A DNA stretch of 64,000 bases from Amphirosellinia nigrospora (lineage: Eukaryota; Ascomycota; Sordariomycetes; Xylariales; Xylariaceae), in the NCBI GenBank assembly GCA_004123355.1, contig SCHM01000004.1, forward strand, positions 2,108,001-2,172,000, in the 5' to 3' direction. This document shows, piece after piece, positions 2,289 to 47,533 of the stretch. How positions within the stretch are numbered: the first letter of the stretch is position 1; the number at the start of each line of letters is the position of its first letter. The notes below the pieces were generated by a model. It searched no databases and had not been told where the DNA came from. It saw only the letters and a program-made list of their open reading frames with translations. The position numbers and the translations under genes are program-made.

Positions 2289-4346
2289 ATGCGGCCTCCT
2301 GTGCGTGTCCCGGTGATAAACATCACCAACGGCACCTTCTACCGCCACCACCCGAATGTTAGCTCGATACATCCGAATCCCGCACTCTTCAAGAACCTGA
2401 ACTTCACATTGCCATCCACCACTGATCCTCCAACACACTGGTACGTGGTTGGGCCGTCGTTGAGCGGGAAAACCAGCTTTCTGCAGATTCTCGGGGGATC
2501 TCACCTGTGCATCCCGCCAGCAGCACGGACCTATCCTTACCTATCATCCGATGCAGTTCCACACAGACTGCGGGTGCCGAGCAGGGCGATCCGATACGTG
2601 GGTTTCAACAACGATAGTCTGACGTCCGGTGTCACTACATCGGCCTACCTCTCCGCTCGGTACGAGTCCAAGCGCGAGATCACCGACTTCTCGCTACGGG
2701 ATTTCTTGCTCGGAAACACGCACCTGAATGTCCTGGAGCGGAATCTGGAGGACGAGCCTAATCCTGCGCTCTTGGACCGGGTCGTCAGGGACTTGAAGCT
2801 CTCGCAGCTCCTGGATCTGCCCGTGGCTTTCTTGAGCAATGGCCAGGGGCGTAGGGCGAGGATAGCGCGAGCTTTGCTCACGGCCCCGAGGTCCTGCTCT
2901 TAGACGAGCCGTTCATGGGTCTCGATCCGCCAACGGTTGCTGGGTTGAGCCCGCTTCTTCACGCCTTGGCTAGTAAGGCGAGCCCGAGACTCGTGCTCAG
3001 CGCCAGGCCGCAAGACCCGATTCCTGATTGGATAACACATCTGGTCTACTTAAGAGCGGATTGCCAGGTCGGTGTCATCGGCGAAAGGAAGAGTGTCCTC
3101 GAGAGTCTTCAGGGGTATGTTCGTGGAGTGTGGGGTGGCACTCTCGTAGAAGATGAGAAACTAGCTATACATAATGTACTTCAAATGGGAAGACCCTCAC
3201 TGCCAAGGGTATCCAAGGGGAAGCCTTGATGGGAGATGAGGCTGTGAACAAAGATAAGGCGCAAGTCACTAACGCAGGTGTCAACCCTCTCAGGACTATT
3301 GGGGAACCACTTGTAGAGATGGAAGGCTGTCAGGTGCAGTATCGAGGCCAGGTCGCACTAGGCAACTGGAAAGAGCAGGTCAATGGCAAAGAACGTGAAG
3401 GGTTGACTTGGACTGTTCGGAGAGGAGAGAGGTGGGTGTTTTGGGCCGAACGGCTCCGGCAAAACTACCAGTAAGTGATTCTCGGAATTTTACCCTTTAT
3501 GTTTTGGGCATGAAAGATTGTTAACGGTATCAACTAACTTTGAGCGTTGCAGTCGTATCTCTCATCTGTTCAGATCACCCGCAGACGTATTCGATGCCTA
3601 TAAGACTATTCGGACGCAGTCGCCTACCGCAGCCTGGTTCCGGTGTCGTCCCCTTGACGTTTTGGGACATTCAGGCACGAATCGGACACTCGAGTCCTGA
3701 GATTCATCAGCACATGCCGCGAAGCCTCACCGTCCGCCAGGTCGTAGAAAACGCCTGGGCGGACACGTTTCGCTCCAAGGCGAAGCTTGACGAACAGGCA
3801 ACGGCGAGAGTCGAGGCCTGCTTACGATGGTTTGAAGCAGAGCTGAACCCGGCCTACGCAGCGCCGTCTCAAACCGAGCCACAAGAAGCAGGCCGAGGTC
3901 TTCAATGGGCAGATCACTACATGTTTGGCGAGCTCTCGTTCTCAGCTCAACGCGTCGCATTATTTCTGAGGGCAATCATCAAGAGCCCCGACATCGTGGT
4001 CCTCGACGAAGCCTGCAGTGGTATGGACGACGGCGTCAGGAACCGATGCCTATTGTTCCTCGAGGCCGGCCAGACGAAGCGATACGCAAAACTGAACGAC
4101 GGCTCGGAAACTATTGTCGAGAGCGAGGCTTCGAAGACGGGCACTGTCAAGATTGGAGGCTTGACCGACGACCAGGCCCTGGTATGTATTAGTCATATAC
4201 GAGAGGAGATCCCGAACTGCGTTCGAGAGTGGATTTGCCTCCCCGAGGCAAACACGGGCGAGCCTGCGAGATTTGGTGTAGCGGACGCACCTCTGGCCCG
4301 AGATGAGAAGAGCTGGAAAGCAATATGGGGGATGGAAGGGGCCTAA
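2289..4346 (+). CDS. Tandem ABC ATPase without membrane domain (YDR061W-like)
   Basis: Two ABC nucleotide-binding domains with no transmembrane segment, the layout of yeast YDR061W and resembling bacterial ModF. Domain 1 has a Walker A (GPSLSGKTS), a signature LSNGQ near 2,840 and a Walker B (LLLDEPFMGLDP) near 2,905. Domain 2 has a Walker A GPNGSGKTT ending at the intron, a degenerate signature LSFSAQ near 3,935 and a Walker B (IVVLDEACSGMD) near 4,000. The intron is 3471-3552 (GTAAGT, branch CAACTAACT, GCAG). Three frame breaks are visible: near 2,887 (one base short in CCCC before EVLLLDEP), near 3,192 (one base short) and near 3,437-3,445 (one T too many or two bases short) just before the second P-loop. 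All motifs on both sides of each break are intact, which argues for sequence error over decay. The transported or regulated substrate is unknown. Confidence 0.8.
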
Positions 4347-30719: not shown

Positions 30720-31291
30720 AATGACATGTATAAGCGAGAATGCCTAGTTGTCTGTATAACGCGATCGTTGTCGTCTTGAGAAAAGGTTGGTTGGTATACA
30801 GAGAATTATATATTTGAATGTAGTGAACTTAGGTTTCGTAGGTAATGTAGGTAGGTGTAAGGTTTGTGATGTAAGGGGGTAGAGGGAAATTAATTCTTAT
30901 CGCTAATTGATTTACGTTATCACCTAGTGGAAAAGCCATGCTTTACATCCCAAATCCCACTTACCTTGACAGATAAGTACCTCCCTAGATACTTGCCCAA
31001 CATCAGTACCTAGGCATGACCGTACTTACTTCTTTACGTGCAGAACGTCTACTAAGTGTTCGAGACCTGTTCTAGAGTATGGGGCACGACCCCGCTATCC
31101 GGCATGCCGATGTTCCTAAAATACTGCGTTGGGTACTTCCAGGTCCAGAAGGACGGCGGGCATGCGATTATTTACCCCATACGTCTTAGCCCCAACCCAT
31201 TCCCCAGCCCGGCTAGCTATCACAGCGGCAAGGCACATATTCATATCCCCGGATGACGTTTTACAGTATAAGAGTAGGCGATTAATTACTA
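30720..31291. other. Left flank of the transposon nest
   Basis: Ordinary-composition sequence up to the TA target site at 31,292-31,293. It contains GTAGGTAGGTG at about 30,847 and TACCTAGGCATG near 31,010. No gene is supported. The change to extreme AT content starts within about 60 bp after the target site. Confidence 0.5.
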
Positions 31292-31293
31292 TA

Positions 31294-31342
31294 ACGTAAC
31301 ACACAAGCATCCTGCACACATAAGCATCCTGCATACTTTTTC
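31294..31342 (+). repeat. Left terminal inverted repeat of the pogo-like element
   Basis: Begins ACGTAACACACAAGCATCCT. It pairs with 47,167-47,215 in reverse complement with 4 mismatches in 49, all transitions. Inside it the unit AAGCATCCTGCA(C/T)AC occurs twice in tandem, as often seen for transposase-binding sites. Confidence 0.9.
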
Positions 31343-31399
31343 GCACTTTTGTACGAACAATTAATATAATTTAATAATAATATAAAAAATTAATTAAAA

Positions 31400-32938
31400 C
31401 TAATTAGAATTGTTTTCGCTAGATGTTTTTATTTTGTTTTAATATATGTGCGCATTATATCTGGGCTCGCTATAAATCTTATAGCACTGTTTATTTATAA
31501 TATTTTTCTTTATATAATAACTATTTAATTATATTTATTATTTATTTAGCTTTTAATAACTTTTTTAGTTTTTTAATTTTATTTTTTTATATAATAAATA
31601 TTTTTTTAATTTAAATCTGTTTATTTTTTATATAATAATGTTAGTTTAGTTTATAATTTGTTTTTTAAAGTTTAGTTATTTTAAATTAAAATAATATAAC
31701 TTAATATTTTAATATATTTGTTTTTTTTATAATTAAATTAATTATATTTAAAATAGCTATAAAAAAGCTATTTTAATATTATATAACTTTTAATTTAATA
31801 TATTAAGCTTATAATTTAGTATTTTTACGTTATAAAATATTTATAACTTTTAAATCTAAAGTCCGTTAAATAACTTTAAGGGCGTTTTAGTTAAATTTTT
31901 AGGCAAAAATTATAAAATAATATATATTAAATCGTATAAAATAAAGCTAACTTTTCGAAAGTTTTTTTTAATATTTTTAATATTATTATAGCTTTATATA
32001 TAATAAAAAATAACGTAAGAAAATTTTCTTTTTTAATATAAATAATATAAACTTAAGCTAATTTATTGATTTTTTTACTATATAACTATTTTAAAAAACT
32101 AAAATAATTAATATTTAAAAACTAAAGTTTATATAATAAATAAGTAAATATATAAAAAATAATAATATTATATTTTTAGCGTATAATTTAAATTTAATAA
32201 AATAGTAATTTTTATAGCTATTTAAAATTAAAAAGTAATAAATACTTTTTATATAACGCGCTATATAGTTATTAAAATATTTAATTTAATTTAAACTTTT
32301 TTCGTTTATAGTTTAGTTATTTTTTATTATTTTAATTTTTTAATCGGTTAATAAATAATTATTTTTATATTAAAATAATAAATAAGTTAACCCGGTTAAA
32401 ATAATATATAGCAAAATAAAATAGCTATATAATAAAATAGTATAAATAATAGTTATTTATTCTTAATTACTTTATTAAATAGTTTTTAGTTATTTGTAAC
32501 GTTATATAACGTTATAACTATTTTAAACGATATTTAGTTTATTAAAACTTTATTTTATTAAAGTTATAAATATTTTTTTTTAAATATTTTTAGCTATAAT
32601 TATATTTTATATAAGTTTAAACTATTTTTAATATTTATTAGGATTTTCGTATAAAATTTACTAGTAATCGATTCGGTAGTTAAAACGCGTTTAAAAATTA
32701 AATAATTATTATATAAAGTTTAAAGCTTAGTTAACCTTAATAAATAATATATTATATTTACGTAATAATTAATTAGCTATATTTTAATATTATTTAATTT
32801 AGGCGGAAATTTTTGCGTATTTAAATTAAATATATATTATACGACTGATTTTTTTTCGAATTCTAATAATTTATATATTGCTAGCTGTTTAGTTTGCTTA
32901 GATAAAATTCCATCGCAACGCGTACGAAAGGTCGACCA
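31400..32938 (-). pseudogene. Transposase fragment, remainder, heavily RIP-mutated
   Basis: Minus-strand continuation of the Fot1-like transposase after the insertion. It is readable near the junction (TFRTRCDGI, KQTKQLAIYKLLEFEKK) and then decays. Stops fall where Trp or Gln would be expected, consistent with RIP. The DDE catalytic residues cannot be located with confidence. Confidence 0.6.
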
Positions 32939-32943
32939 AAAAA

Positions 32944-33214
32944 AGTTACGGATCTGCAGGCTCTGGTGGCTGTGCCCCACCACTAGCCACAGCACCCGTA
33001 ATCTCCACTTGCAGTAACTGCCACTCGCAGTGAATGCAGTGCAGTGAATGAAGGCAGGCACTGGCAGTGAATGCAGCTGCCCTACGCGAGTATTTAAGCA
33101 GCTGCCTATACTGTAGATTTAGACCTTCCTTCCTTCCTACTTTATCTATAGATTTTATATACAATATACTATATATACTAAAGCTTTATTTTTTCGAGTA
33201 TATAAAACGTAATT
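32944..33214 (+). repeat. Left LTR of element A
   Basis: 271 bp, AGTTACGGATCTGCAGG at the start and AAAACGTAATT at the end. Its first about 180 bp are GC-normal and carry GCAGTGAATGCAG repeats and a TATTTAAG box (about 33,090). The last 90 bp are heavily C-to-T mutated compared with the right copy. Confidence 0.9.
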
Positions 33215-35845
33215 ATTTATAAATTATTTATAATATTATAAACATTAAAACTATTTTTATAATATTTTTTAATTAAACTAAATAATTAATTTAATTTAAA
33301 AATATTAAAATGCTTTTTAAAAATAAACTAAAATAAAAACGTATATAGCTATATATACTAAAGCTTTTATTAATATTTTAAATTTATTTATTTCGAATAT
33401 TTAAAACGATAAGCTTTTTATAATAAAACTTTAATAAATAATAAAAAATATATTTATTTTAGCTTTTTAAACTATATAAAAATTATAATAATAAGCCGTA
33501 AAAGCTAATTATTTTTAATTAATTTAATATAGTAATTTTATAGTATTAATAAATATATTTAAAAAATAAAAATTCAATATAAATATTGCTAGTTTTAATT
33601 ATATAATTTAATATTTAGCTAATAATTATATAAAATTATAAATAAAAAAACTAAGCTTAGCTTTTATTTTAAACTAATAATATAATATAGTAAAATAATC
33701 TAGCTTAATTTTAATAAAAATATAAATTAAACTAATATAAATAATATATATAAAGATTTTATTATTTTTAAAAATAAAAATATATATTTTTTTAATAATA
33801 GTTTATTATTATTTAGCTATTAATTTATATATTTATTAAAAAATTAAATAAATAAAATAAAGTTTTGTTCGATTAAATAAAAAATAAAATAAAATTATTA
33901 TTTTTTATAATAAATATATATTTAATATATATTATTAACGTTTTTTAACTTATAATTAAAAATAATTTTAGCTAATAATAAACTAACTAATAAACTATTA
34001 ATTAATTATTAAATAAACTATAAAAAATAATTAAATAGTATAATTACGCTTAAAATAACTTAAATATTTTAAACTAATAAATAATTAATTTATTAAATTA
34101 TTATAAAATAATTTTTATTTTATTAAATAATAAAAAAAATAACTAATATATAGCTAAAATATTAATATTTATTTTTATAATAATATAATTAAAAATAAAT
34201 TTAAAAAATATAAATTTAAACTATATAAAATTATTTTAAATTTAATATTAATTAGTTTTATAATAACGTAGCTAAAATAGTTAATATTAAAACTTATATC
34301 GAAAGTTATATAGCTAACGATTTTTTTTTTATTTTTTATCCGATTATTTTAACGTACTAGTTAATTTAAAAGCTATTTTAAAATATTTTAAAAAATTTAT
34401 ATTAACTATAATAAAAAAACTAAAGCTAATTTTTAATTATTTAGTTTTAATTAATATATATTAGCTAAATTTTTTAAGTTTTAAACTATTTTTATTTATT
34501 TAGCTAATAAAACTAAATTTAATAAAATTAAATAAAAAAAAAAGTTTAAAAATAAACTATTTTTTAATTAATAATTAAAGCTATATTAAAATATTTAAAA
34601 AAAAATATTAATTTCGATATTTATATAAAATATTATTTTAAATAGTTTATTATTTAATAATAATTAATTATAAATAAAAAAAATTTATAAAAAAAAATAT
34701 AAAAGTTTACTGCTACGATTTTTATTTTTTTTTTTTTACTTTTATTTAAATAATTTTTTATTTTATTTTAAAACTAAACAATAATAATAATAATTTTGCT
34801 TAATTATTTAAACTTAACGCCGATAAAATATAATAATTAATTTTTAACAGTAAATATTTTAACTATTATTAGTAAAAATATATTTCAAAAGAATATTTAT
34901 TAAAAAATTAAATTTAATAAATAAAAAAACTTAAATTATTATTATTTAACTATATATATAATTAAATATTAAGCTAGCTAATATATAAAAAATAAACTTA
35001 TAATAAGTATAAAAAAAAAAAATAACTTTAAAAAAAATAGCTTTTTTTTAAAAAAATATTTTTAAAAAATACTATTAGTTATAAAATAAATCAATAAAAA
35101 AATATTTAAACAGAAAATTTTTATTATATATTTATACTTTATATAATAATAAACTTTTTTTAACTATAAATAATTTTTTAAATATAAAAATAAATATATA
35201 TAAATATAAACTAATAATTCGTAAAAAAAATTATTAAACTATTTAACTTTATTATTATTATAGATTTTTTTATTAAAAAAGTTATAAAATATAATAGCAA
35301 AAATAGAAAAAATATTAATCGGGCTTTTATTATTAATTAAAATATATAAAAAACTTTTAAAAATAAATTTATAACTATTATTAATTTAATTTATAATATT
35401 ATTTTAAGCAAACTATAATTTAAATATTATAATATTTTATTAAATTATTAAAAAACTATTTAATATTTTTATTTTAGCTATTTTTTAATTATAATATAAA
35501 ATATTATTTAATAATAAATAAAGTAAATATATAATTATAATATTTAGTTTATTAATTTAATACCGATTAATAAAACTATAACTTTAAAATCGAAAAAATA
35601 TAGCATTAATAATAAAAAAAAAATAAAATAATATTTAAAAAATATAAAACCGAAAGTATTTATTTTAAAATGTAGCAATTTTATAAAAAAAAACTTCGAA
35701 AATAAAACAAGCAATATTTAATTAGCTTTTATTAAAGTTTATTTTTAAAAAACGTAAAACTTATTTAAAAAATATAGCTTTAATTTTTATTTAAAAGTTT
35801 AATAAAAAAAGCTTATATTATATAAAATAAAATAATATTGGTTAA

Positions 35846-36132
35846 TATTATAATTGTAGTATTACTTACGTACGGAGTTAATACATTAGTATTAACTATA
35901 TACGATAGCTAATTATTAACTGTAGTATTAGCTGTTCGTATAACAGAATTAAGCTAATATGTCCGCCCGATTTAGTTATACAGTATATTTAATAAAATTC
36001 TTTTTGTATAAAAAAATTCTTTATATAAAAGCCTAGCTTTTATACGAATAGTTAAAAAAAATAAATCGATATATATAAATATTTATCTTACTTTTTATTA
36101 CGTATAATATTATACTTTTTAGCTATTTAATA
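35846..36132 (+). repeat. Left LTR of element B
   Basis: 287 bp. Recognisable core words shared with the right copy: TAGCTAATTATTAACT, AAAAATTCTTT and AAAGCCTAGCTTTT. It still contains GTCCGCCCGATTTAG near 35,960. Confidence 0.87.
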
Positions 36133-39100
36133 TTAATTAATATTTTTAGTTAAAAAATATAAATTAGTAAAAATAAAAACAAAATTTAAACTTAGTTATA
36201 TAAGCTACGTTTTTTATATTATATTTTAGTTCTTTTAATGCTATATTAATAAAAAAAAAATTAATTATTTAACGTACTTTAGTACTATATTTTATATAAA
36301 AGTTTAATTAATAGCGCGTAATTATACTACTTTAAATTATTATTATACGAACTACGTAAAAATTCGTAATATAACTTAACAACTTTTTTTATCCGTAATA
36401 TTTTCGAATATAATAAAAACGATAATTAATCGTATAATAGCTAATATAAGCAAATATAAAAATATTATACTTTCGAAAAAGCAGCTAAAATAACTTTTTA
36501 TTTTTTTAGCTAATATTTTATATAATAGTATAGCCAAAAAAATCGCCTAAAAAACCGGTATACTTTTAAATTTCGTACGAAAAACTATTAACCCTCGTAC
36601 GTATAAAAATATTTTATAAAACTTTAAAACAGCTATTATAAAATAAATTAACGCGTAAATAATATACTTATATATAAAATATAGTTATATTTATATAATT
36701 TAAAAAACCTTTAAAAAATACTAATAAAAAACTTCGAAATAATAAAACCTAAAATATTTAATAGGATTAATACCTAAATTATTAAGAAAATTTATAACGC
36801 TTTTTATACAAAAAGCGTTTTAAATTAAAAACTTATAAAACAATTAAAAAAAAACCGTATATAATTTATAAAAAGCAAATATACTTTAGCGTATAAATCT
36901 TAAATTCCTATACAACTATCTCGGACAATATCTATATTCTTTACGCTAAATTAATAACTTTAAAATTAACAAATTTTTTATACAATAAAATAACTTTATA
37001 ATCCTTTTTTTTAAACAAAAAAATAAAAAAAAAAAAACAAAAAAATAAACAAAAAAATAGCCGTAAAACAACCTACGTACGTAACTAAAAGCTGGCCTTT
37101 TAACCCTAAAAATAAACATTATACGAAAATAAAATACTAAAAGCAAAATTCTAAAAACCTTTTATAACTATTAAACATTACTTATTACTTATTTTAGTTA
37201 ATAACCTACCTCTTATACAAACAGGAAATATACCATACTTTTAACGTATAATAAAATACTTAGTTCTTTAAAATCCCTTTCAAACCTTAAATAACCTATT
37301 TATTACACAATATTAAATATAAAAATACCTTTATCTAAGATCTAAATCCCTTTTACGTATAATATTTAAAACAAAGCTATCTTATTTACGAAATACTAAA
37401 TCTTTTAAAAACCTAGCAAAAAAAAAAATTATTTTAAAAAACTATACAATTTATTTTATAATAAAATATAATAGTTTATTAATTATTATTATAAACTTAA
37501 AATTATAAAAAATTAGTTTTATATTATATTCTTTATAATATTAACCAACTATACGAAAGATTATTATATATACTATATTAGCCCTAATTATACGTAGAAA
37601 AAAACATACCAAACTATAAATTTATATTTTAATACAATTATAAACTATAACTAATATTAAACTAATTAAACTAATATTACTTTCGTATAAATATATAAAC
37701 AAAAAAAAAACTTATTTCCGTACAAAGCGTTAAAAGTTATAATTAATAAACTATTTAAAGCTTAAAAAACATTTAAAACAAAATACTTAAAAAAAATTCA
37801 CTTAAATATAACTATTATACGCGCGTATAAAAGTATCCTAAAATTCGAAATAGCACTTATTTTTTAAAAACCTACGTATAAAAGATTCTTTTTAAACCTT
37901 TTTTATTTCCGGGTTAAAAAAAACCTAACAATTTAGTACTTTATATAAAAAATAAAAAATTTATATTATATAAATCGACAATATAACTAAATTAACTATT
38001 ATCTTATATAATATAAAAGTACTACATAATACCTTAAAAATCTCTAAAAACAATATATTAGCTAAAATATATAAATAGCTATCCCCTAAAAAACCTACAT
38101 ACAAATAAAAAATACTTTATTTACTAAAAAAAAAGTGCTAATTAACCAACTATACTCTTTAAAAAAAATCTCGCGCGAAAAACTAATACTTTAATACATA
38201 TAAAATAATATTCGAAAATAAACTAACCCCCGAAAAATTTTTAATTTATTTAACTAAATATAAAAATTACTTAAATATATACAATAAAAAAAAAAAAAAA
38301 AATTTAAATATACAAAATAAAACATCATATAATATATTATAATATAATATTTATATATTATACAACAAAGGAAAACATCTAATTAATAACTACGGACTAA
38401 CCGTTTAACCTATTTATATTTAATAACTAATATCGTACGAAATACTAAAATATTATTTAAAATATAAAAGCCTCGAAATTTTCCACTATAAAAAACTATA
38501 AATAAAGGCTTACGTACAAAAAAAACCTAAAAACCAGAATTACTTAAACCTTTAAAACAGCTAAAATAAACTTTAGCAAAAACTATACGATAATTTCGGT
38601 TAATATAATAAAAATTAATAACTAAATTAGCTATATAATATTTTATATCCTAAATACCCTTACCTTATTCTTATTCTTTTTAAAAAATATAAACTACTTA
38701 AAAGCATATTTTAATAATATAAAAAATATTATTATACAAAAAAAAAATAATATTCTTATTATACGTAAATAAAGCCACCCGTTTTTTAATATTAGCTTAT
38801 ACAAAACAGCTAACTACTTTATAAAAACTAAGCTACGCTATTTATATAAACGATTTAAATACCTTTATATAAAAAAATTATATAAAATACTATTTTACGC
38901 AAAATATAAAATCGAACAATTTATTCTAAAAAAAATCTAAAAATTTTATTATTATTACTAAACGTATAATAAAATTTTACAGCGATTTAAATTTATAATT
39001 AAAAATAACTATAAATTTAACTATAAAATAATTATAACGTTATATAAATAAACAATTAAAACGTATTATATATATTAACGTTACTATATTATTTTAAACA

Positions 39101-42100
39101 GCAACTTTTTTAAAATTAATATTTATATAAAACATATAAAAAATATTATATAAATACTAGATTAATATTTACTAAAAACCTCTTAATAATATTATATATA
39201 ACCTTAAAACAAATTTTTATTAAACGAATTTAAAAAATATACTAAAATAATTAACGTATAATGCCGCGAAATATTTATCGAAACATATTAAATAATAAGC
39301 AAAATAAAACAAATATATAAGCTATTTAAATATACGTACAATATTTTTCGGGAAAAAATCGATATATATATAAATAATAAATTAATTTTATAAATAATAA
39401 TAAAAGCATTAAATAATACCGCTAAACCTAATAGTTTTATATTAACCTTTTTTATTTTTAAAGCTTATTTTCGTATTAATAAAAAGTTTTTTTTTTTCTT
39501 TTTATATAAAAGTAGCAGCCGTTTAAAAAGTAATAAAAATACTATATAAAAACTATGCAAAAATTAAAATTAATTATATAATTAATAAATAAAATAAACT
39601 ATTTTCGTATATATATTTATATTTCTTTTTCGAAACGAAATTTTAATATAAAAAAAAAAAATAAAATAAGAAAAACTATACAAAATTAAAACAATTAAAA
39701 ATTAAATATAATTATAGTTTCGATTAATAAATTAATACGTTTTTAATATACGTAAATTAAACTATATTACTATACGAAAAATATTTAAGCAAATAATTTA
39801 AACTAGAATAATATATAATTTATATAGCTAATAGTTATTAAAAAAAACATAGTTAGCTAAAAAAAAAAAATTTAGCTTTATTATTATATAACGCTTAAAT
39901 ATACTTATTATATAATATTTAAATACTATAGACTTTTTTAATAAAAAAAAAAAAGCAAGCTTTTAAATTAGCAATTAATTATATACGGATAAAATTATTA
40001 TAACCCTTAATAAACCGTTTAAAAAGTTAAACGTAATAAAAATTAATAAACTTATTATATAAAGCGTTTTTAAATTTTATTATATAACCTAAATATTTAT
40101 AGGAAAAAATATATTTTTAAATCCTATTTTATATAAAAAGTTAAAAAAAAAATTATAAAACTATATAAAAAGTTTAAATTTATTATATAAAAATATAATA
40201 ATATTAAAAAAAATATTATTTTAACTTAATTACTAACGATTTAACAAATAAGCTAATAGCTAATTTTAATATTTAGCTTTACTTTTATATAAAATTTCGA
40301 AACTTTATATAAGCTTAAAAATATTATTTAAGCTTATATTTAATTAGAAATAAACTATTGCGCAATATTTATACTTGTTTATTTTTAAAGCTAAAAAAAA
40401 ATACCCTTTAAAAACTATTTTATATATTATACGACCTTTATATAGTTTAGCTAAATTTAAGCTATATTAGTTTAAAATATATTATTAATATTACCAGGAA
40501 AAACTTAAAATATAAATATTTATATATAACTTATATTTATTAATTATATATAATAGTTAAATATTTTTAAAATAACTAAAATATAAACGGATAATACGTT
40601 AAGTTTTATTACGCTAAACTTTTCGTCGCGTAAAAAAAAAAAACTTAAATAAATAAAATTTCGCGCGAAGCTAAAAAAAACTTTATTTTTTAAATATTTT
40701 TTCGAATTTAATAGCAAAAAAATTTTTTATACGAATAAAATATTATAATAATTTAAAAAAGTTAAACTAAAAATTTAGCTAAAATTAACTTTTATATAAA
40801 AAAATTCGCTTAAGCTTATATTTTTTAACGAGCTAAAAAGGCATATATTAATAATATATATTAATTTAAAGCTATATATAATTTTACTATTACAGCTTAA
40901 ATTATTAAGCTATAATCGCATAATATTAAGGTATTAAATAAGCGGATTAAATAATAAAAAAATAATTTATTAAAAAAGCTTATATTTATCTTTTTCGATT
41001 TCTATTATATAAAACTTTTTATTTTTATAAACAGATTATTTATAAATAATATAAATATAACTTTATAGCTTAAATTTATTATTATATTTATAGTCGAAGC
41101 TTATATAAAAGATATAATAAACTTAAATTTTAAAATCGAAAGCAATATTATATACTAAAATTCGAATAAATATAAAAAAGTTACGCAAAATATTTTAGCT
41201 AACGAATTATATAATATAGTTAGCGGTTTTAATAATATTATTACCTTTTATATAATATTTTAAAAAGTTATAAAATATTTAATTATTTCTAATATTTACT
41301 ATTTTATATTTAAATTTTAAATCGTTATATAATTGCTTAATTAAAAAAATAATTTAAAAAAAAAATTAATAATAAATATTATATTTTTTTAAAAGTTATA
41401 TAAAAAAAAAAAATCTTTAAAATATAATAAATTAATAATAAAAATAACCTAGCTAATATATTTATTAAACGTACGTTAAACTAAATATTAAAAACTCTAG
41501 TTTTTACAAATAAGCTGCTTATATAAATTAAAATATTTATTAAAAAACTATAAAAAGTATATTCGTATAATAAATAATAGCTAAATATATATAAAAGTAA
41601 TATATTACGTATAAACATTTAAAAAACAGATATTATATATAAATAGTAAAAAAGTTAAAAATTATAATAAAAATAATAATTAAAATTTATACCCCGAAAA
41701 ATAATACGTATAATTAATTTCTTATTTTTCCTTCTTTTTCTTTTAAACTTAAACTATATATAATAAAAATAATAAACATTGTGCGATCGCTATATATAAG
41801 CGTTATAAGCGCTATTTTAAAAAACTTAATATTATATAATATTAGTTAAACGGAATATTTTAATAATTAACGTAACCGCTATACAGACTATTTTAATATA
41901 AAATAATAATTTAGCTATAATTTTAAACAAAAATTATATAAAAATATTTTTTCTAACATATAAATTTCGCTTATATATTAGCGAAAATAATAGTCGACAA
42001 TACCCAAAAAATAATATTATACAAAAAAGTAAAAACAATTATACTTTTTCGTTTTATTATATAATAAAATAAATTAACTAAAACATATATTAAAAATTAT

Positions 42101-42973
42101 TCGTATAAAATAAATAAATAAAAATATACGTACGTTTATATATTAACGCTAATATAAAAGCTTTATAAGCCCGATTTTTAGTAAAAAAGCTATAGACTTT
42201 AGTAGCGCTACTATTTTTTAAACGTATAAAATTTTAAAACTACGCAATACTATTAAAAATAAAAAGCGTAAAACGTAAATAAAGAACCCCAATAAAATTA
42301 GTAGGTCTTACAACAGCTATTATTAATATTAATAACAATTTTGCTTTAATTGTTTATTAATATATATTTAAAAGAACTTAGAAAGCTTTACGTATAATAA
42401 TAATAATAGCAATAATAATAATAATACTATTGTTAATATTACTAATATTACTAGTGCTATTATTAATATTATTATTAATATTACGCTTATTATATAATAA
42501 TTATTAAATTTAATACTATATAAGTTTGCAAAATTAGTTAAAGTATACGTATAAAGTGTATATATATACGTATATATATATATATATATATAAATAAAGT
42601 ATATACGCGTAAAAAAAAAAAAAAAAAAAAAGAAACAGAAAAGCAATATAAAAGTAATTTAACCTATATATAATAGCAGCAAATATAAGGATAATATATA
42701 TTTAATTTTTTAAAATATTTAAATAAATTAATAAAAGAATTATATATAATAATTATATATAAGTTAGCTTTTTTATTTATATTTGCTAACTTTTTTTTTT
42801 ATATAGTTATATAAATACTAGGTATTTTAAAAAAATAGCAATTTAATATATTATTAGGCGCTTTTTATTACGTACTTGCTATATAATATATTTAATATTT
42901 TTTTTACGTTTAGATTTTTATATTAAAAAAATAATCGTACGAAAGTACGCTATAGCTAAAAAAAAAAAACTAA

Positions 42974-43260
42974 TATTATAATTATAATATTATTTATATA
43001 TAAAGTTAATATATTAATATTAACTACATATAATAGCTAATTATTAACTATAATATTAGTTATTCGTACGATAAAGTTAGGCTAATATATCCGCTTAATT
43101 TAGTTATACGGTATATTGTAGCAAAATTCTTTTTATATAAAAAAATTCTTTGCATAAAAGCCTAGCTTTTGTACGAATAGTTAAAAAAAATAGATTAATA
43201 TATATAAGTATTATCTTACCCTTTGTTACGTACGATATTGTACCCTTTAGCCACTTAATA
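42974..43260 (+). repeat. Right LTR of element B
   Basis: 287 bp, same length as the left LTR; differences are nearly all transitions. It keeps more G/C at the end (ACCCTTTGTTACGTACG), whereas the left copy reads ACTTTTTATTACGTATA there. Confidence 0.87.
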
Positions 43261-46200
43261 GTTAATATAAAAAAAAACTAATAATTAAAATATTTAGCTT
43301 AAATATTATTATTTTTAATATAATAAAAAAAACTAAATAAAAAACGTTTATATTATTAATATAATAAAGTTAATAAAATAATCGGAAAATTAAAAAAAAT
43401 AAAAATAACTTTTTAAAAAAAAAATAAAGTTAAAATAAAAAGTATAAAAAAAATATTTAAAAAATATTAAAACTTAATATATATTTTAGCCAAGTAAACT
43501 TTAATATGCTATTGTTATATTATTTATAAATAAACTATAAAATAAAGTTTTTAAAAATAAATTTAAAGCTAATTTAAAATATAGTTTTTTATATAAATTT
43601 ATTAAATAAATTAAAAGCTATATAAAAATTTTAGTTAAAAATTTATACAAAAGCTTTATTAAATTTAATAATATTTTATATATAATTTATTTTGTTTATA
43701 AAAAAAATAAATAATAAGTTTTATTTTTATATAAATTATTATAAACTAAACGAAATTACGAAAAAAAACTAATATTTGCTTTTTTTATTAAAAAAACTTT
43801 AGCCTATATTATTAAAACGAAAATTTTTACTTAATTAATATATAATAAATATTTAATTATATTTATATACTATTCGGGAATAAAAATTATATAACGTTTT
43901 ATATAAAATATAATATATATTAATTGTTAATATTATTATTTAGTTTATTAATAGATTTTCGACGTTTTAATAATATATTAATAATATATTATTTAATTTT
44001 TAAACGATTTATAAATAATTTACGCTAATAACGTTATTATTTATTCAGAAATAATAAAAAATATATTATTTATATATATATATACTAAAATAATTAATTT
44101 AAGCAAAATATAAATTAATTTAAAAAGTCTAAGTTTTACACGTTATTAAACTAAGTTTTTAAGCTATATTATTATATTAAAAAAATTTAAATAAACTTTA
44201 TTAAAATTAACGTTATATTAATAAAAAAATTCTTATATATTAAAAAACGTATATAATTTTTTTTAGGATTTTATAATTTTTACTAAAATTTATCGATATT
44301 TAAAGTTAGTTATAACGTTTTTAAACCGATTAATATAAAAAGCATATTTTTTAAATAAACTAAAAAATAAAAAGTTATTTTATTAGTTTAAAAAAGCTTT
44401 AATAAAATCTTTTTTATTAAAATATTTTAATTATAATTATTAATAAAAATTAAAACTAATATATCCGATAGTATAAGCTTTAACGTATTATTATAATTAT
44501 ATAATAAAACTTAGTATTTTATAGCGTTTTTTCGAAAATATTTTATAATATTAAATTAAACTATAATATTTATAATAAAAAATTATTAATAGTTATATTA
44601 TGTTTTAAAAAATAAAAACTTAAATTAATTAATAATTAATAAGCTTTTTTTAATATTTACCGATAATTAAATATTAAAGTTTTTAGCAAAAAAATAATAT
44701 TTTATTTTAAAATAAGCTAAATAAATAATTTTTTTTAAAATACGATTTTTTAATATTATATCGCCCCGGTAAAAATAATTATTAGCTAATGTTTTATTAT
44801 AAAAATAAAAAAACTTAATAATATAAAAAGCTAAAAAAAAAATATAACGCTATTTTATAATATTTTAGCTAGTAAATAATATAATACGATTAATTTTTAT
44901 ATAAATAAAGTTATATTAAATAAATTTTATTAAAATATACAATAAATTAAATATTTTTATAAAACTATAATTAATCGAGCAAATTTTTAAAAAAAACTAT
45001 AAAAATATAAATATAAAGATTATTATTAACAAATTAAAAACAATAAGCTAAAAAATTTATAAAAATTAAAAAATAAATTAATTATATTTTACGGACGCCT
45101 AGTTATTTTTAATTTTTATATTTAAAATATATTTTATTAAAAAAATATATTATAAAATATTTATTATATATTTTAACAAAAATAAAATATATAAATTTAT
45201 TACCGAACGTTATTAGTAGCTTAAATTAAATAAAATTATAATCGTTATATAATAAACTATATAAAATATAAGCTTACTAAAGTATTTAAAGATAAAATTT
45301 CTAATAAACTTATATTTTTTTTAATATTTAAGCGCGTATAATATTATTTTATTATTAATTTTAAATAAATATTAAAAAATAAATATAAATATAATAACGT
45401 ATTAATTATAATAAACTATTTAAGCAAACAAGCATAAATTATATTTATACTATAAAAACAACCGTAAAAAATACTGCTAAAATATATTATAAAAATTTTT
45501 TTTAAATTTTTAAAGTATTTATAATTATAATTTTAAACCGTAAATTTTAATTTATTTCTACTTTTATAAATAAGCTATATAAACTAATAAAATAAAATAT
45601 ATATTAGCTATTATAAAATATTATAAAATTATAAAACAAATAAAAATTATAAATAAATATATTAATTAAAAATTATAACTATATATAAATTATTATTAAA
45701 ACGATTAGTTTAAACGTATATTTGCTATAAATTATATTTAAGCGTTAATTTTTATTTTAATAAAGTTATTATTTTATAAAGTTAAAATAAGTTTTTTAAT
45801 ATTATTTAATTTTAATTAAAAAATCGGACTATAAATAAAAAGCTATAAAAGCTTTTAAAAAAAAAAAAACAATTTAAATAAATATATAAAAAAAAATAAA
45901 AAAAATAGCGTAGTTTATTAAATTAGCTAAAAAAAACTTATAATATATTTAAAAACATATAATTAATTAAGCTAATAAAAGTTAATAAAAACTTAATTTT
46001 AATATAAAAAATTATATATTAATTTTAAAAAAAAAACAATTTTAAAAAATAAACCGTTTATTAAATAAGCTAGATTTTTTATAATATAATAAAAGTTTAA
46101 AATATACAAAAAAAAGAAATATTTTTATATTAAACATTTTTATAATTTAGAAAATATTAAATCGTTATTATATAAATCGATTATAAAAATATTTTAATAA

Positions 46201-46743
46201 CTTATTACTAAATTAAAAAGCAAAAATTTAAAAAAAAAATAATAAAACCCGAAAATAAAAAAAAATTTACTATTAAAAAAATACAAACATTTTAATTTTA
46301 TTATTAAAAATTATAATATAAATAAATTAAAAAAATTAAAACCCCGATAATATATAATATTTAATAAAAATTTTAAAAATAATATAAAAGTACTAAAAGA
46401 TTTTATAATATAAACCTTAATTTAGCCGGACTTTTAATAAAATTATAAATATAGCTAAAAATAACGTAAAAAACAAATTTAATAAGCTATATTTAAACGA
46501 TAATAAAGCTATAGTATAAAAAAAAAATAACGTAAAAAAAAACATATAAATATTATATATGCTTAAATATTATATTAAGTAAAAAAACCTTAAGCGACGT
46601 ATAGAAAAACTAATATAATAATTTAACAGTATAAAGGCTTGCGAGAAATTATATTAGTAGAAACCCGAAGCGATCCCTCCTTTTGCTAAAAAGCAGTCGC
46701 GACTTCAACCCCGGTTAAATCACTCTTTTTTTCGAAGGGAGAT

Positions 46744-47014
46744 AGTTACGGATCTACAGGCTCTAGTAGCTGTGCCCCACCACTAGCCACAGCACCCGTA
46801 ATCTCCACTTGCAGTAACTGCCACTCGCAGTAAATGCAGTGCAATGAATAAAGGCAAGCACTGGCAGTAAATGCAGCTGCCCTACGCGAATATTTAAGCA
46901 GCTGCCTGTACTATAGATTTAGACCTTCCTTCCTTCCTACTTTATCTATAGATTTTATATGCAATATACCACATATGCTGGAGCCTTGTCTCTTCGAATG
47001 TGTAAAGCGTAACT
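46744..47014 (+). repeat. Right LTR of element A
   Basis: 271 bp, the same length as the left LTR. Compared with it, the first part shows G-to-A changes (CTACAGG for CTGCAGG, AGTAAATG for AGTGAATG), while the last part is better preserved (CCACATATGCTGGAGCC). Confidence 0.9.
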
Positions 47015-47019
47015 AAAAA

Positions 47020-47118
47020 CATTATAGATTTTTACAGCGCATCGTAACAATAATTTTTCGTCGCGTTCTATAGCTCGTAATACAAACTATAGATTGCTTT
47101 CTCGTATAACAGCGCCAT
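47020..47118 (-). pseudogene. Transposase fragment, N-terminal part
   Basis: On the minus strand this encodes VIRESNL, a stop, then RAIERDEKLLLRCAVKIYNV up to the retrotransposon A junction. The same open frame continues at 32,938 downward on the other side of the insertion (FWSTFRTRCDGI). The start codon at 47,118 is one base out of frame with the rest. Confidence 0.65.
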
Positions 47119-47166
47119 TATTAGTTATTAAAATATTTAAAAATAAAAATAGAAAGTGTAGAAATA

Positions 47167-47215
47167 GAAAAAGTATACAGGATGTTTGTGTGTGCAGGAT
47201 GCTTATGTGTTACGT
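47167..47215 (-). repeat. Right terminal inverted repeat of the pogo-like element
   Basis: In reverse complement it begins ACGTAACACATAAGCATCCT, with the same tandem sub-unit. It is followed by TA (47,216-47,217), the other half of the target duplication, and lies about 318 bp upstream of the FAHD1-type start codon. Confidence 0.9.
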
Positions 47216-47217
47216 TA

Positions 47218-47533
47218 TCCCTATTTCACGGAAATGTTCTAGCGCTGCCGCCGAGCGACCCGGATTTACATTTACAACCGTTACTCGGCGCCAATTCTTC
47301 CGGCGTTCTACGGGTTCTAACGACAACTTGCCGGTAGCTGACCCGAGCAAAAAAAAAAAGCCGCATTGGCGAATCACGAACTCTTGCTCGACACCTGCGA
47401 CGCGCGCCCTCCTCCAATCCGACCCCCGCATCGTAATAGACCATTGGTGTCGCTTGTATAATACTCCCGTTAAGGAACAGTATATATCACGCAAAAAGAC
47501 AGCTGGAGAGCTATCTCCGAATCATTCGTCATC
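47218..47533. promoter_or_regulatory. Short upstream region of the FAHD1-type gene
   Basis: Only about 316 bp separate the transposon end from the start codon, and composition returns to normal immediately after the TA target site. Open frames crossing it (for example 47094-47537) run in from the transposon and show no domain. The gene's promoter must either fit here or use transposon sequence. Confidence 0.5.

Follow-up and report, generated by a model that had tools for sequence, protein, structure and literature searches.

We describe a three-level nest of transposable elements at positions 31292-47217 of a 64,000-nt stretch of the Amphirosellinia nigrospora genome (the window, contig C6:2108001-2172000; genome of 48.1 Mb in 11 contigs). 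Its junctions are resolved to the single base, and the nest is real at that level: a DNA transposon of the pogo/Fot1 type contains a long terminal repeat (LTR) element, here called A, which in turn contains a second LTR element, B. We propose, with a probability of roughly 0.87 for the whole account including its timing, that three successive transpositions took place in a filamentous fungus with strong repeat-induced point mutation (RIP), as follows. The pogo/Fot1-type element sits at a TA, and A inserted into it with a 5-bp duplication, probably while this copy was still unmutated. RIP would then have mutated both elements, likely sparing ~100 bp on the pogo side and 200 bp on the A side of the left seam and a wider, more lightly spared zone at the right seam, presumably because homology to other copies stops at the pogo/A seams. 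B inserted into A, again with a 5-bp duplication, at a time when A would already have been mutated, and B would itself have been mutated by later RIP.

Architecture of the nest and order of insertion

The nest is composed of the following features (strand in brackets where one applies).

31292-31293: TA target duplication of the pogo-type element, left copy, read directly; partner at 47216-47217
31294-31342 (+): left terminal inverted repeat of the pogo-type element, beginning ACGTAACACACAAGC; arms 92% complementary
31294-32943 (-): left part of the pogo/Fot1-type element; copies continuous over the A site, DDE_1 in a relative
32939-32943: AAAAA duplication of A, left copy, from the sequence and pogo copies
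32944-33214 (+): 5' LTR of A, AGTTACG...; first 200 bp nearly free of RIP-type change
33215-35840 (+): interior of A left of B; GC 0.083, near-saturated RIP-type change
35841-35845: GTTAA duplication of B, left copy; GTTGG in an unmutated A copy
35846-36132 (+): 5' LTR of B, from the paired repeats
36133-42973 (+): interior of B; orientation suggested by an A-rich tract right before the 3' LTR
42974-43260 (+): 3' LTR of B, from the gapped LTR alignment
43261-43265: GTTAA duplication of B, right copy
43266-46743 (+): interior of A right of B, ending in the polypurine tract TTCGAAGGGAGAT
46744-47014 (+): 3' LTR of A, with light and mainly G-to-A change, from the sequence and retention counts
47015-47019: AAAAA duplication of A, right copy
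47020-47215 (-): right part of the pogo-type element with its right inverted repeat, from the inverted arms and copies elsewhere
47216-47217: TA target duplication of the pogo-type element, right copy

Each level is bounded by a paired target duplication (TA, AAAAA and GTTAA), in agreement with the first-pass annotation of this DNA, which had claimed a three-level nest with readable junctions. The inverted arms of the outer element (31291-31342 and 47167-47218) are 52 nt long including the TA, and the element spans 31294-47215 when the TA pairs are read as outside; its left inverted repeat holds two near-identical subrepeats of ~17 bp, and its target is a TA in ordinary DNA of ~47-50% GC. The two LTRs of A differ at 26 positions, all of them transitions. 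For the LTRs of B, a gapped alignment gives 48 differences in 286 columns, again all transitions, and was used instead of the ungapped comparison, which yields 93 differences with false transversions. The LTR lengths of 271/271 and 287/287 reported earlier both hold, with the qualification that the second pair is equal only through two cancelling 1-bp indels. Likewise, the claim that removal of the inner elements restores normal sizes agrees with the copies found elsewhere: by arithmetic only, pogo becomes 1,846 bp (full-length copies, ~1.81-1.85 kb), A 6,651 bp (unmutated copy, 6,848 bp) and B 7,415 bp.

Identity figures behind our conclusions were taken from purine/pyrimidine-coded (RY) alignments; plain BLAST with AT-rich pieces returned masses of chance matches. 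Genome searches, with the window's own match counted, gave at least 41 matches for the B LTR, at least 40 for the A LTR and at least 41 for the pogo left end (best 40 of 67 candidates scored), and the notion that no other copies share these ends fails.

As read from direct comparison with copies whose inner sites are empty, at both inner levels, the order of insertion is pogo, then A, then B, the order that had been claimed from the nesting. Among 20 pogo copies fetched for comparison at the A site, 15 are empty and continuous there, with AAAAA intact in 13 of these (L040 and L044 differ), and the remaining five (L048, L051, L055, L056 and L057) end short of the site; TA stands on both sides in 10 of the 20 by a crude terminus scan. 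At the B site, the A-family copy L101 is uninterrupted, the left window piece ending at its position 3253 and the right one starting at 3249, i.e. with the expected 5-bp overlap, which reads GTTGG in L101 and GTTAA in both window copies. An assembly join of unrelated repeats, for which the difficulty of assembling highly repetitive AT-rich DNA could speak, is hardly credible in view of duplications that match at all three levels and inner sites found empty elsewhere, and we reject it.

Outside the nest, GC averages 46-50%, and within 31.3-47.2 kb it is 8-25%, a few seams excepted. Ordinary eukaryote domains, e.g. protein mannosyltransferase and glycosyl hydrolase 18, were found in five of the ten flanking open reading frames (ORFs) searched.

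Identity of the three elements

A TA duplication, inverted repeats, a length of 1.8 kb and a DDE_1 transposase are the defining features of Fot1/pogo elements, Tc1-mariner transposons of fungi. The outer element shares the first three, and the fourth is present in a relative with the same termini; unlike a typical member, the window copy is mutated and split, and otherwise nothing unusual was seen in it. A genome search with the DDE_1 profile gave four matches, none in the window; one of them, of 87.9 bits, lies in L036 (contig C9), between termini that differ from those of the window element by 4 and 3 mismatches of 39. L036 is ~0.6 kb longer than the window element and has an RY identity to it of 0.945 in the left and 0.969 in the right part; for the left part, the best local RY scores were 1030 (L035) and 985 (L036), with a control maximum of 131. 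Together, these comparisons support the pogo/Fot1 class suggested earlier, by relationship and not by a protein of the element's own, and L036 would place the transposase on the minus strand. The 15 pogo copies differ from the window copy by 188-229 transitions and 2-53 transversions (0.1-2.9%), and with so few transversions most of their 11-15% divergence is compatible with RIP.

Contig C9 (1.33 Mb, <3% of the genome; loci L035-L037, L079, L080, L096 and L098) carries three of the four DDE_1 matches and almost half (20) of the 41 RVT_1 matches listed at E up to 1. It may be an accessory contig whose elements evade RIP, as described for the supernumerary chromosomes of Fusarium poae in the available part of the source (PMC4994206).

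The class of A rests on L101 (contig C4, G000:C4:4987900-4995300), an essentially unmutated copy of 6,848 bp with identical 296-bp LTRs, an interior GC of ~0.5, an ATTTA duplication and a polypurine tract before the 3' LTR. Separate searches of its three frames identified reverse transcriptase (RT, 113 bits), RNase H, the zinc-binding and core domains of integrase, and a chromodomain; the first frame, at the gag position, gave no gag domain, and its one match, to HeLo and under the threshold, was set aside. Among solved structures, the RT frame best matches 4ol8, which we take to be Ty3 RT, and 7q5b, which is named Ty3 Gag-Pol. The window interior of A has an RY identity to L101 of 0.994 left and 0.988 right of B, with plain identities of 0.538 and 0.579; for the left piece, shuffled and reverse-strand controls reach 0.834 and 0.820 in 153 and 133 blocks, respectively, versus 35. 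Through this less mutated relative, A is supported as a Ty3-type chromodomain LTR retrotransposon, consistent with its earlier assignment as an LTR element. A LTRs often stand alone, 12 of the 20 fetched with 5-bp duplications, as would be expected if the paired repeats were no retrotransposon ends and an independent short mobile repeat merely happened to lie on either side of unrelated DNA. We regard this as very improbable and reject it for the family, given that the repeats of L101 are identical and enclose all the domains named above (RT, RNase H, integrase, chromodomain), that a polypurine tract precedes the 3' one, and that the window interior matches L101 at 99% RY identity.

The surroundings of L101 have a GC of ~0.1 and no RIP is visible within it; this suggests recent movement of A, at a time when these surroundings had already undergone most of their RIP.

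The ends of A were analysed in 20 LTR loci fetched by similarity. The first seven bases are AGTTACG in 17 and the last seven CGTAACT in 19, ends that L101 shares, and an exact 5-bp duplication adjoins this boundary in 12 of the 20 (none exact in the other eight). Other boundaries tested gave a 5-bp duplication in at most 4 of 20, and 4-bp subsets of the same duplications are also found in 12. TG...CA ends, typical but not defining for Ty3-type elements, are therefore not those of A in these 20 loci. Relative to an arrangement TGTTACG...CGTAACA, only the outermost pair is swapped, at both ends, and this T-to-A swap cannot have been made by RIP, since RIP gives transitions; the integrase of A would then join ends reading CT-3' rather than CA-3'. 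Furthermore, the 10 nt following the 5' LTR can pair with LTR positions 226-235 (a match of at least 8 arises in 87 of 5000 shuffles). A may be self-priming in reverse transcription, in line with the elements described in the accessible text of PMC2864245, where the sequence after the 5' LTR is complementary to the element's own LTR or transcript.

A resembles the Tf1/sushi chromoviruses in its RT, RNase H, integrase and C-terminal chromodomain, its 5-bp duplication and perhaps its self-complementary stretch after the LTR. However, the consulted part of PMC3601003 gives the LTR ends of Sushi chromoviruses as TGTYANR...CNTNACA, unlike the AG...CT of A, and the integrase motif of the insect Zam clade as AGTTAYRK...TAAYT, which the ends of A, AGTTACGG...TAACT, fit. 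Unlike the Zam-clade errantiviruses, A carries a chromodomain, and on its coding strand the only ORFs of at least 120 aa are the frame at the gag position, two for pol and one of 150 aa that overlaps pol. Errantiviruses have an envelope gene and no chromodomain. The likeness between the ends of A and the Zam motif looks like convergence. AG...CT ends in a fungal chromodomain element were not met in the titles and abstract openings found, a weak negative as repeat databases and subscription papers lay outside the search.

The 12 A LTRs with exact duplications have a GC of 0.46-0.50, and 11 of them are flanked on both sides (200 bp) by GC <0.30. In a 40-bp test, A interior adjoins the LTR in L076, and not clearly in the other 19 (L070, 0.75 upstream). 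The loci L059-L078 comprise unmutated A LTRs without adjoining interior and with perfect duplications in AT-rich DNA, in length classes of ~270 and ~295 bp. Lone A LTRs are best read as solo LTRs. The unmutated ones may have arrived late or may lack the length needed for RIP, to which a length threshold is applied in the available part of PMC4994206. In L063 and L026, an A LTR is immediately followed by another AGTTACGGAGT stretch, possibly as tandem LTRs.

That B is an LTR element, as previously claimed, is supported by its paired LTRs, its duplication and the TG or CA ends kept in four of eight loci examined (L003 and L008 start with TG, L005 and L007 end in CA); no protein domain was found in it. 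None of these eight loci keeps both, and the ends of B were probably the canonical TG...CA originally. A 901-bp query from its interior gave 39 other near-full-length matches at 86-90% identity among 40 scored. B pieces compared with 26 fetched loci (22 RT, 4 DDE_1) reached best RY scores barely above controls, e.g. 157 with L084 versus a codon-shuffled maximum of 143 (40 shuffles). The first half of B (36133-40000) has 434 C versus 194 G, reflecting either strand-asymmetric loss or an originally skewed sequence. Elsewhere, the loci L091-L095 (C1:5499608, C1:12638343, C4:2326918, C4:7647740 and C4:7655988) each have an RVT_1 match of 99.2 bits uninterrupted by stops; another element with reverse transcriptase may recently have multiplied in a burst.

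Mutation and sparing at the seams

Compared with L101, the A interior is changed at 713/747 CpA, 600/720 CpT, 632/816 CpG and 554/768 CpC sites, 82% overall; the 5,775 columns compared also contain 54 transversions (about 1%) and 18 transitions in the reverse direction. These figures include a small real divergence, L101 being a sister copy and not the ancestor. C-to-T change on both strands with a preference for CpA, i.e. the pattern of RIP, is observed; RIP is also characterized by its dependence on a RID-type enzyme and the sexual cycle. The order of contexts is that of Neurospora crassa (CpA>CpT>CpG>CpC, according to the available text of PMC5496416), here near saturation. Likewise, C-to-T change, CpA preference and AT-rich blocks are shared with the RIP-mutated transposons of Leptosphaeria maculans, Trichoderma reesei and F. 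poae, as far as the accessible parts of the sources go (PMC4352252, PMC5496416, PMC4994206). Unlike in those blocks, 82% of the G:C pairs of the A interior are changed, in every dinucleotide context and as measured against an unmutated copy, and the seams of the nest may record order.

All three elements are strongly AT-rich, yet the seams differ in what they retain. The A 5' LTR keeps 100/104 G/C in its first 200 bp and 12/28 in the next 71 bp, and the A interior keeps 451/2694 (first 200 bp versus interior, p = 2e-68); the 3' LTR keeps 115/132. The pogo flanks of A keep 28/34 and 27/35, more than in any of the 15 copies lacking A (0.17-0.57 and 0.18-0.61), and the middle part of the window pogo, which keeps 136/275, is at the top of the 15-copy range (p = 6e-6 for near versus middle). 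Next to B (100 bp on either side), A keeps 8/55 and 7/50 (15/105), like its interior (p = 0.59). Change at the right pogo/A seam is one-sided (G-to-A 130/221, C-to-T 53/176, p = 1e-8), a pattern that action on a single strand would leave.

These counts suggest that pogo was unmutated when A entered it and that A was already mutated when B inserted: the former since the pogo flanks are spared, the latter since the A/B seams are unspared and GTTAA carries two RIP-type changes in both copies. The clean junctions that the first-pass annotation had found surprising in such mutated DNA are in part explained, as mutation left the pogo/A seams largely untouched; the A/B seams did not escape it, and yet the copies of their duplication are identical.

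Unmutated solo LTRs are abundant, and gene conversion from them could have restored the A LTRs of the window after RIP. However, the spared tract extends past the LTR into pogo on both sides, where other pogo copies are more mutated; as its ends do not coincide with the LTR ends, we reject such restoration as improbable.

A different timing, in which B inserted before any RIP and its seams were mutated later, by RIP or heterochromatin spreading in long repeat blocks, would render the sparing uninformative on order relative to RIP. B indeed lies deep within repeats, and spared A LTRs tend to adjoin GC-richer DNA and mutated ones AT-rich DNA: among ten A 3' LTRs (window included), retention correlates with the GC of the 300-bp neighbour (Spearman 0.92; 0.91 from rounded values, and 0.90 without the window copy and L026). 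The left pogo/A seam, in contrast, is spared though it lies between the mutated stretches of pogo middle and A interior, and we consider this timing unlikely, although it deserves to be taken seriously.

Several observations weigh against the proposed history of insertion into unmutated pogo and then into mutated A. In addition to the lack of a DDE_1 match in the window, neither RVT_1 nor RVT_2 is among the matches listed there. Pogo, though older, is less depleted (GC 0.147) than A (0.083-0.113), hence RIP burden is not a simple tracker of age. In nine of the 15 pogo copies without A, retention is higher close to the site than in the middle, the difference reaching 0.21 as against 0.30 in the window, and the outer pogo ends of the window are relatively spared as well, at 0.75 and 0.70 (others, 0.31-0.68 and 0.12-0.78); part of the seam sparing is consequently not due to A. 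The neighbour of L026 used in the correlation is itself LTR-like. Finally, the identical GTTAA copies support insertion of B after RIP only weakly, as independent mutation would give them with a probability of ~0.68 (arithmetic from context rates).

Implications

Nested transposons in RIP-mutated, AT-rich DNA are generally known, and nests are ordinary in fungi. The nest itself is thus ordinary, and what is new is modest: the swapped base at the LTR ends and the signal at the seams. Taken jointly, they amount to a tentative proposal, somewhat more apt to fail than to hold: that a chromodomain element swapped its outermost LTR pair toward the Zam motif, and that RIP spares ~100-250 bp per seam side between repeats mutated together from an unmutated state, which would make such seams a clock. 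The AG...CT ends bear on whether the usual CA-3' end used by integrase can be replaced symmetrically in a chromodomain element. RY coding reads through near-total RIP, allowing transversion divergence, insertion order and mutation timing to be separated in DNA that is usually dismissed. If the seam sparing is general, it would bear on the reach of RIP homology recognition at the edge of a repeat.

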